Of a stretch of DNA of 38,009 nucleotides, positions 36,042 through 38,009 are shown in pieces; positions within the stretch are counted from its first letter, which is position 1, and every line of letters starts with the position of its first letter. The stretch lies in NCBI GenBank assembly GCA_949290865.1, contig CASETM010000059.1:1-38009 (forward strand), in the 5' to 3' direction. The translations under genes and the position numbers were made by a program. The notes beneath the pieces are model-generated. The model made no database searches, had not been told where the DNA came from, and saw nothing but the letters and a program-made list of their open reading frames with translations. Origin of the DNA: an uncultured Bacillota bacterium (GTDB taxonomy: Bacteria > Bacillota_I > Bacilli_A > Erysipelotrichales > Coprobacillaceae).

Positions 36042-36065
36042 TAATATAAAAGGAGGAAAATGAAG

Positions 36066-37745
36066 ATGATGTTAACAGGTTCGGAAATTATTTGTGAATG
36101 CCTGATCGAACAGGGTGTTGATACTGTGTTTGGATATCCAGGAGGAACTATTCTTAACGTCTATGATGCTCTTTATCGTTATCAAGATAAAATCAATCAC
36201 GTTTTAACCTCTCATGAACAAGGGGCATGTCATGCTGCGGATGGTTATGCCAGATCAACTGGAAAAGTTGGTGTCTGTATGGCGACTTCGGGACCAGGAG
36301 CAACCAATCTAGTTACCGGAATAGCAACTGCTTATATGGATTCAACACCGCTGGTAGCGATTACTGCCAATGTTGGTGTAGATATTTTAGGACGTGACAG
36401 TTTTCAGGAAATTGACATTGCTGGAGTTACAATGCCAATTACTAAACATAATTTTATTGTTAAAGATATTAAAGATCTGGTTCCAACGATCAGAAAAGCT
36501 TTCTATATTGCTCAAGAAGGAAGACCTGGACCAGTACTTGTTGACGTAACAAAAAATGTTACTGCTGAAAAAATGGATTTTGAACCAAAGAAACCGGTGA
36601 CAGTTTATCCAAGAGTTGAAACATTTTCGGATAAAGAAATTGATCAGGCGATTGAACTGATCAAAGACAGTGAAAAACCATTTATTTTTGCTGGTGGTGG
36701 GGTTATTGCTTCTCATGCCAATCAGGAATTGAAAGAATTTGCGGAAAAAATTGATGCTCCAGTCTGTGAATCATTGATGGGGAAAGGGGCTTTTGATAAT
36801 ACCAGACCTCGTTATACCGGAATGATCGGGATGCATGGAACCAAGGCCAGCAATTTCGGTGTCAGCCGTTGTGATTTACTGATTACAATCGGAGCCAGAT
36901 TTTCTGATCGTGTGACAGGGAATGTGCAGACATTTGCACCACATGCTAAAATCATACATATCGATGTTGACGCTGCTGAAATCAATAAGAATGTCACAGT
37001 TGATCTGGGTATCGTTGGAGATGCCAAATCAGTTTTGACAAAACTGAATGAAAAGATCGACAGATTGAATCATCCACAATGGCTGAAAGAAATCAGAGAT
37101 CTGAAAGAAAGTTTCCCATTGAATTATGATGAAACAGGACTTTCAGGACCATATGTAATCGAACAGATCGACTATTTAACAGACAGTCAGGCTATTATCT
37201 GTACTGATGTTGGACAGCACCAGATGTGGACTGCGCAGTATTATCATTTCCGCCGTCCTCGTCAGCTGATTACTTCTGGTGGAGCAGGAACGATGGGATT
37301 TGGTTTAGGTGCAGCAATTGGTGCCAAATATGGAAATCCTGAACAGCATGTTTTCAATATTGCTGGTGATGGCTGCTTCAGAATGAACATGAATGAACTG
37401 GCAACCGCAAGCCGTTATAATGTGCCAATTATTGAAGTTGTTATCAACAATAAAGTTTTAGGTATGGTTAGACAATGGCAGACATTGTTCTATGGAGAAC
37501 GTTACAGTAATACAATCTTAGATGATAAGGTTGATTTCTGCAAGGTAGCTGAAGGTTTAGGATGCAAAGCGATTAAAGTCACATCTAAAGAAGGTGTTGC
37601 TCCTGCAATTAAAGAAGCAATGGCAACCAACGGACCAGTTCTGATTGAAGTTGTTATTGATAAAGATGATAAAGTTTTCCCAATGGTTGCACCAGGGGGA
37701 GCAATCGCTAAGGCGTTTGATGCAACTGATTTGAAAAATAAATAG
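36066..37745 (+). CDS. ilvB: Acetolactate synthase large subunit
   Basis: Thiamine-diphosphate enzyme that condenses pyruvate with pyruvate or 2-ketobutyrate. About 559 residues in three domains: N-terminal FGYPGGTILNVYDAL with catalytic Glu in SHEQGACHAADGYARS; a middle FAD-type domain (SLMGKGAFD, DLLITIGARFSDRVTG); and C-terminal ThDP motif GDGCFRMNMNELATASRYNVP...VINN. ATG 36060, 36066 and 36069 are all possible; AGGAGG (36051-36056) fits 36066 best. Last gene of the operon. Confidence 0.95.
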   Translation: MMLTGSEIICECLIEQGVDTVFGYPGGTILNVYDALYRYQDKINHVLTSHEQGACHAADGYARSTGKVGVCMATSGPGATNLVTGIATAYMDSTPLVAITANVGVDILGRDSFQEIDIAGVTMPITKHNFIVKDIKDLVPTIRKAFYIAQEGRPGPVLVDVTKNVTAEKMDFEPKKPVTVYPRVETFSDKEIDQAIELIKDSEKPFIFAGGGVIASHANQELKEFAEKIDAPVCESLMGKGAFDNTRPRYTGMIGMHGTKASNFGVSRCDLLITIGARFSDRVTGNVQTFAPHAKIIHIDVDAAEINKNVTVDLGIVGDAKSVLTKLNEKIDRLNHPQWLKEIRDLKESFPLNYDETGLSGPYVIEQIDYLTDSQAIICTDVGQHQMWTAQYYHFRRPRQLITSGGAGTMGFGLGAAIGAKYGNPEQHVFNIAGDGCFRMNMNELATASRYNVPIIEVVINNKVLGMVRQWQTLFYGERYSNTILDDKVDFCKVAEGLGCKAIKVTSKEGVAPAIKEAMATNGPVLIEVVIDKDDKVFPMVAPGGAIAKAFDATDLKNK

Positions 37746-37753
37746 CTGTTAAG

Positions 37754-37785
37754 AAAGAATAAGCAGATTTTTTGCTTATTCTTTT
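37754..37785 (+). terminator. Terminator of the leu-ilv operon
   Basis: AAAGAATAAGCA (37754-37765) pairs perfectly with TGCTTATTCTTT (37773-37784), loop GATTTTT, followed by one more T and an AT-rich stretch. Confidence 0.85.
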
Positions 37786-37803
37786 ATATTTCCAAGGAAA
37801 TAT
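37786..37803. repeat. 18-bp palindrome after ilvB terminator
   Basis: ATATTTCC and GGAAATAT flank AA as a perfect inverted repeat, lying 11 bp upstream of the TTGACA of the next promoter. It could be a second operator for that promoter or part of the operon's 3' end. Confidence 0.4.
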
Positions 37804-37814
37804 TCTGTCATTTC

Positions 37815-37845
37815 TTGACATTAGAGTAACTCTAAACAGTATGAT
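37815..37845 (+). promoter_or_regulatory. MerR-type promoter with 19-bp spacer and dyad
   Basis: TTGACA (37815-37820) and TATGAT (37840-37845) are 19 bp apart, and the spacer begins with the dyad TTAGAGT-A-ACTCTAA (37821-37835). An overlong spacer filled by an AGAGT...ACTCT dyad is the hallmark of promoters activated by MerR-family regulators through DNA untwisting. No plus-strand gene follows within the window: the first ATG (37850) opens only seven codons. Confidence 0.6.
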
Positions 37846-37882
37846 AATAATGGCAAAAGAAAATGAACGGTAGTGTCAAATA

Positions 37883-37912
37883 AGTTATGAAAAAATGAAT
37901 TTTTTCATAACT
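37883..37912. terminator. 13-bp hairpin, probable minus-strand terminator
   Basis: AGTTATGAAAAAA (37883-37895) pairs perfectly with TTTTTTCATAACT (37900-37912), loop TGAA. It lies just past the stop of the minus-strand gene fragment; A/T content within the stem allows termination on either strand. Confidence 0.6.
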
Positions 37913-37916
37913 AGAA

Positions 37917-38009
37917 TTACATAGTAGATTCTATGTAGTAATTCAATGCTTCATCCAGCAGTATGTTCCATTTGCTTGGCATATTATGTGTCTTTTTAAG
38001 ACAATCCAA
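37917..38009 (-). CDS. 3' end of an unidentified minus-strand gene
   Basis: Read on the minus strand from the window edge, one frame is open for 30 codons to TAA (37919-37917). It ends KKTHNMPSKWNILLDEALNYYIESTM, and a strong hairpin follows, as expected for a gene end. The Trp-containing basic segment followed by a helix is reminiscent of C-termini of some transposases, but I cannot identify a family and a chance open frame of this size is possible. Confidence 0.35.
   Translation of the reverse strand: MDCLKKTHNMPSKWNILLDEALNYYIESTM

Follow-up and report, generated by a model that had tools for sequence, protein, structure and literature searches.

A MerR-type promoter probably parted from its gene by an IS6-like element proposed to insert ahead of Shine-Dalgarno sequences

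Promoters regulated by MerR-family proteins have a spacer of 19 to 20 bp that carries a palindrome, as described in the available parts of PMC9909328 and PMC1526738. Among mobile elements, long IS6-like elements with a zinc finger and an extra N-terminal extension in the transposase make up clades VII and VIII of Clostridia, which mostly generate 8-bp target duplications, and their membership in the IS6/IS26 group was doubted by the authors who described them (PMC6807381, sections available). The nearest precedent that we found for targeting of the kind reported here is that of the TnGBS/ISLre2-type elements, for which the accessible text of PMC3942029 describes oriented insertion 15 to 17 bp upstream of the -35 box and ascribes it to the asymmetry of the 2 inverted ends. 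A large survey, in the part available, gave no gene-orientation preference for the IS6 family overall (PMC9208149), which neither contradicts nor supports a special habit of the IS branch examined here. The accessible part of a study of IS movement in Geobacillus kaustophilus HTA426 lists one IS6-type element on plasmid pHTA426 and reports no movement of it (PMC8024623). Judged by titles and abstract openings, the literature held no report of an IS that targets Shine-Dalgarno sequences, and the terms Shine-Dalgarno, ribosome and start codon were absent from the available portions of PMC6807381 and of the IS6 review PMC7986276.

The DNA analyzed here, referred to as the window, is a stretch of 38,009 nucleotides that represents the entire contig C59 (CASETM010000059.1) in an assembly of 107 contigs from an uncultured bacterium of the family Coprobacillaceae. 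With a probability of about 0.9, its right end holds an autoregulated merR promoter behind ilvB that was parted from its gene by an IS landing just upstream of the Shine-Dalgarno sequence, at a position that is not accidental. The observations on which this account builds are the promoter, the conserved gene in relatives, the IS terminus, the presence of the IS in multiple copies and the 8-bp duplications at its sister copies. The features of the region are as follows:

36060..37745, plus strand: open reading frame of the upstream neighbor, which we take to be an ilvB-like gene for the acetolactate synthase large subunit; same neighbor in genome G005
37756..37786, plus strand: stem-loop and T-rich tract (AGAATAAGCA...TGCTTATTCTTTT), probable ilvB terminator, read in the sequence and conserved in G005
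37815-37820, plus strand: -35 box TTGACA, read in the sequence and identical in G005
37821-37835, plus strand: MerR-type operator dyad TTAGAGT-A-ACTCTAA within the spacer, based on the sequence, shuffles and family genomes
37840-37845, plus strand: -10 box TATGAT, read in the sequence and identical in G005
37846..37868, plus strand: remnant of the merR 5' leader, truncated just before its Shine-Dalgarno sequence according to an alignment with the leader in G005
37861..37868, plus strand: AAATGAAC, presumed 8-bp target duplication adjoining the IS terminus; second copy absent from the assembly
37869..37895, minus strand: right terminal inverted repeat of the IS6-like element, GGTAGTGTCAAATAAGTTATGAAAAAA; same 27 bases at contigs C52, C84 and C74 and in other genomes
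37883..37912, no strand assigned: hairpin rich in A+T within the IS end that may terminate the transposase gene (RNA fold of -10.9 kcal/mol for 37880-37912)
37917..38009, minus strand: 3' end of the IS transposase gene (30 codons and the stop), with the remainder lying beyond the contig end; 94% identity to residues 450-481 of the 481-amino acid transposase in genome G006

The spacer between the -35 and -10 boxes measured 19 bp and enclosed a perfect 7-1-7 dyad. The exact dyad occurred once in the window, the expectation at up to 2 mismatches being 0.20 matches. The composite site, defined as TTGAC, a spacer of 18 to 20 bp with a perfect half-site of at least 7, and TAnnnT, likewise had one occurrence in the window, and none of 300 dinucleotide shuffles produced it; across the whole genome, a search for the promoter pattern that allowed as many as 2 mismatches gave a single site. 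All elements of the strong MerR-family target described in the initial annotation (TTGACA, a 19-bp spacer, the dyad and TATGAT) were thereby confirmed. The site resembles MerR-family promoters in its over-long 19-bp spacer, in the palindrome between the boxes and in the adjoining regulator gene; unlike mer, for which dyads of 7-4-7 or 9-4-9 have been described, the dyad here is 7-1-7 and the regulator has a membrane segment (available parts of PMC9909328 and PMC1526738). It is a MerR-type promoter that, judged from its position, would here autoregulate merR. We also observed a dyad ATTTCC-AA-GGAAAT at 37788-37801, between the ilvB terminator and the -35 box, that was fully conserved in G005 although the neighboring bases differ; it could be a second operator.

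The same locus in the congener [Clostridium] spiroforme An567 (G005, JACJKV010000006.1) showed the same succession of ilvB, terminator and promoter, with a MerR-type gene directly behind the promoter. The An567 promoter was identical through TTGACATTAGAGTAACTCTAAA and TATGATAATA, and was followed by AAGGAGG and an open reading frame of 366 amino acids that matched Pfam MerR_1 (E 4e-18). This protein and 5 relatives contained 2 hydrophobic segments after the MerR domain, a two-helix membrane segment. Relatives of the 366-amino acid protein were identified in 10 of the 43 family genomes at E<=1e-40, and a promoter of this type was located upstream of the gene or its operon in 9 of them: directly before merR in 7 (G005, G006, G008, G010, G027, G035 and G041), and in G001 and G002 before an operon of the order lipoprotein-merR-merR. 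In the tenth, G003, the contig ends 775 bp upstream of the gene. The dyad was conserved in the relatives inspected, against the refuting case named in the initial annotation. The expected target gene was found behind the promoter in the congener, whereas an IS6-like terminus starts 23 nt past the -10 box in the window, which supports the earlier suggestion that an insertion displaced this gene.

Of the 17 family sites that fitted the pattern, 7 stood ahead of merR and 2 ahead of the merR operon, 6 lay in front of a GNAT-like acetyltransferase gene and 1 in front of an old-yellow-enzyme-like gene, and the last was that of the window; the GNAT-like and old-yellow-enzyme-like names were given by reading the sequence by eye. 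The strict pattern was also present at 12 loci in the genome_contigs set, where besides merR of An567 it preceded transporters, cation ATPases and other genes (named by eye); at one of the 12, L086, our script found no frame within reach. The 28-64 matches in G001-G003 were dismissed as without meaning, their positions being inside unrelated coding sequence. It was also noted that the GNAT-like acetyltransferase gene is preceded by a related promoter with the dyad TTACAGT-N-ACTGTAA, or a near variant, at L093, L101, L102, L104, L106 and L109, in 5 family genomes. Furthermore, the first MerR-type gene of G005 is followed by another (L009:3911-4858), which encodes one hydrophobic segment at the C-terminus and has a long-spacer dyad promoter of its own, TTGACCATGGTCTTAGACCATACCTTAAACT, and the MerR-type gene behind the conserved promoter in G006 (C1:86299-87429) appears split into a frame of 124 amino acids and a separate downstream frame.

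The sequence from 37869 onwards is repeated in the same genome, with 100% identity to the ends of contigs C52 and C84 over 141 and 140 bp. Two statements of the initial annotation have to be modified because of this. The seven-codon frame behind the promoter exists at 37850-37873 (ATG GCA AAA GAA AAT GAA CGG TAG), but its last bases, 37869-37873, are those of the IS terminus, so that it arose through the insertion. The convergent minus-strand gene end is also present, but it is no host gene: it encodes the C-terminal part of an IS transposase that the contig end truncates. Contig ends at such repeats can pass for convergent genes.

A full-length copy in G006 was 1693 bp long, with inverted ends starting with GG, a target duplication ACTTCAAA and a transposase of 481 amino acids; the ends were asymmetric, with GGTAGTGTCAAAAATAG on the left and GGTAGTGTCAAATAAGT on the right. 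The transposase matched the Pfam domain DDE_Tnp_IS240 at 34.7 bits against a cut-off of 27, as expected for an IS6/IS240-type DDE transposase, and also the zinc ribbon Zn_ribbon_IS1595, whereas the NCBIfam equivalog for the IS6 family proper gave 81.3 bits, below its curated cut-off of 125. Because of this lower score we call the element IS6-like, as is argued for the long forms in the available text of PMC6807381. The combination of an 8-bp target duplication and inverted ends starting with GG was observed at 2 copies in the genome of the window and at the G006 copy. As described there, clade VIII (ISHahy6, ISHco2 and ISTet2) would share with the present element a length of about 1.7 kb, a transposase of 450 to 480 amino acids, the zinc finger, the further N-terminal extension and the 8-bp duplication. 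Unlike clade VIII, both ends begin with GG here, and relatives were also found in Coprobacillaceae genomes, Geobacillus and lactobacilli. These comparisons are by description, and set the G006 copy (1693 bp, 481 amino acids, Zn_ribbon_IS1595) beside elements given as >1700 bp with transposases of about 453 amino acids (PMC6807381, sections available). No match to the transposase was found in phages, and searches of viral_contigs with single proteins added nothing to the contigs already found, one of which was found again.

The genome of the window contained 3 right ends of the IS (C59, C52 and C84) and 3 left ends (C2, C8 and C47). Two pairs could be formed, with C52 and C2 sharing the 8-bp duplication TAAAGGAT, and C84 and C47 sharing AAGAGATA. 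It is because these 2 sister copies and the G006 copy have 8-bp duplications that AAATGAAC is presumed to be one as well. This flank of C59 matched none of the 3 left-end contigs, and the left end on C8, which precedes a ClC-type channel gene (named by eye), had no right-end partner; a rearrangement between IS copies is therefore possible. A hybrid promoter formed with the outward TTGACA of the IS ends was also considered and rejected, since by eye no -10 box lies at 16 to 18 bp in the flanks.

When the left ends on C2, C47 and C8 and in G006 were read outwards, the 8-bp flank was followed by exactly 15 nt with a G-rich Shine-Dalgarno sequence and then by ATG. A rule of exactly 15 nt was formed on these 4 junctions, and more distant relatives were then chosen without regard to their flanks: 11 plasmid records, included if half or more of the transposase was present, 5 IMG/VR loci and a second, distinct IS beside the first in G006. 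Of the plasmid records, 6 had no readable left end. Excluded were the plasmid loci L129, L130, L131 and L135, which form one lineage with no recognizable left terminus, the masked plasmid locus L133 and the plasmid locus L134, which lacks its left part, as well as L138, whose element is that of L139, the inner tandem-copy junctions in L137 and L140, and an internal end repeat in L136. The window copy was left out of the count since its left end is outside the assembly, and no further left ends were found in 40 contig starts of G034 (which has about 90 contigs). The IS tails that place the junctions were picked after the sequences had been viewed.

In 13 of the resulting 14 readable left junctions, the ATG was located 15 nt (10 junctions) or 16 nt (3 junctions) after the 8-bp flank; of the 10 junctions added after the rule was formed, 9 fit if 16 is allowed (6 at 15 and 3 at 16). 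All 13 have the left end of the IS facing the gene and retain the Shine-Dalgarno sequence; the hosts of this IS and its relatives belong to the family of the window, Geobacillus and lactobacilli. The exception, on pHTA426 of G. kaustophilus, has the G-rich stretch in place and its first ATG at 22. Positions 4 to 7 of the flank were purines in 14 of 14 junctions, with G in 12, 13, 10 and 13 of them. At 0.0134 per site, the density in the window of ATGs with 40 open codons multiplied by the 2 offsets, a fit of 13 out of 14 by chance has p ~6e-24; this is a rough yardstick, and some junctions come from related elements. Duplications of 8 bp on both sides were found for 11 of the 14 junctions and were lacking for C8 and Geobacillus L126; for L140 the comparison covered the left flanks of its 2 copies, those of L128, L139 and the second G006 IS were read by eye, and the IS ends of L139 and L140 fit with one base changed. 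Behind the ATG, 2 of the 13 frames were short or not the longest that the script listed (45 codons in Pediococcus L128, and no 40-codon frame within the first 60 nt of flank in L140), and in L137 the script preferred an earlier in-frame TTG. In the uninterrupted merR leader of An567, GGAGGATCAGCATA (14 nt) separates the position matching AAATGAAC from the ATG, so the insertion in the window fits the rule of 15 to 16 nt within one base.

Judging from these junctions, we think it likely that a group of long IS6-like elements, widespread in Bacillota, targets Shine-Dalgarno sequences and inserts 15 to 16 nt plus the 8-bp duplication before the start codon, with the left end toward the gene, and that the zinc ribbons and N-terminal domain of the transposase read the G-rich DNA; the orphan merR promoter would be one case. 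Like the TnGBS/ISLre2-type elements, this IS has asymmetric ends. The promoter-targeting TnGBS, ISLre2 and ISKra4 (Mutator-like) elements differ in having another kind of DDE transposase, and the mark here would be the Shine-Dalgarno sequence and start codon (PMC3942029, part available).

The promoter is a genuine finding with an ordinary explanation, namely a merR promoter under autoregulation that an IS has separated from its gene. How the IS chose its place does not appear to be ordinary. By analogy with the MerR family, a regulator dimer bound to the dyad in the over-long 19-bp spacer would hold the promoter off until a signal makes the dimer untwist the spacer DNA, upon which merR mRNA would be made; we infer this cycle of repression and activation, the activity of merR and the fate of the gene in this strain. 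In this strain, an IS6-like element of about 1.7 kb, with an N-terminally extended zinc-ribbon transposase, has most likely inserted just upstream of the merR Shine-Dalgarno sequence, with the transposase gene pointing back at the promoter. The promoter would now read into the 3' end of the IS. For the regulator this may mean silencing, expression from IS-borne or readthrough transcription, or loss; a target gene reached by readthrough may lie beyond the window, since the assembly ends in the IS. The fixed distance before start codons and the single orientation suggest that the transposase probably recognizes G-rich Shine-Dalgarno DNA.

Insertions in genes are selected against and intergenic ones generally favored, and the precise positions ahead of Shine-Dalgarno sequences might thus reflect survival, insertions elsewhere having been lethal or lost, rather than target choice. 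We hold this to be highly improbable, since selection alone is not expected to fix a distance of 15 to 16 nt and one orientation in 13 of 14 junctions from several genera, given the chance estimate above. Even less credible is a functional promoter that makes a small or antisense RNA reading against the end of the transposase gene, the initial annotation having proposed such an RNA as one option. The boxes of the promoter are intact, and a transcript from it would be antisense to the 3' end of the transposase gene and would cross the A+T-rich hairpin, but the bases past 37868 are IS sequence, the arrangement was created by a mobile element, and the congener has a protein gene there. Moreover, 16 of the 17 family sites precede protein-coding frames, the window being the sole exception.

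The fate of merR bears on a third alternative, that C59 and C8 flank a single rearranged copy of the IS, across which the promoter now faces the ClC channel gene, merR having been deleted or moved. No other IS ends lacked a partner, the assembly of the window contains no merR (best match 30%), and IS6-type elements have been described to make deletions and inversions that swap flanks (PMC7986276, part available). However, pgk, which is found beyond merR in An567, also lacks its 5' part in this assembly, contig C95 ending inside it, and the absence of merR is explained most simply by a contig missing between C59 and C95. Furthermore, clc in the congener sits behind another gene (GntR-like by eye) and not near ilvB. 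We therefore regard the rearranged copy as unlikely, and insertion of the IS between the promoter and merR as the preferred reading.

The insertion rule matters more than the promoter itself. If it is true, each jump would unplug one gene from its promoter and leave the translation signal intact, the orphan merR promoter being one case. A transposon able to locate ribosome-binding sites would lend itself to use as a tool and would be a natural means by which promoters and genes become unlinked, and recognition of a translation signal in DNA by a DDE transposase would make the target choice directly testable.

Two further arrangements of IS ends were observed. A near-perfect palindrome of 58 bp (G000:C74:10693-10750, L016) resembles a minimal MITE, being composed of 2 terminal repeats of the IS placed back to back, with no 8-bp duplication seen in its flanks. 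In L137 and L140, ends of a long IS6-like element occur in tandem, with an 8-bp flank between the copies.
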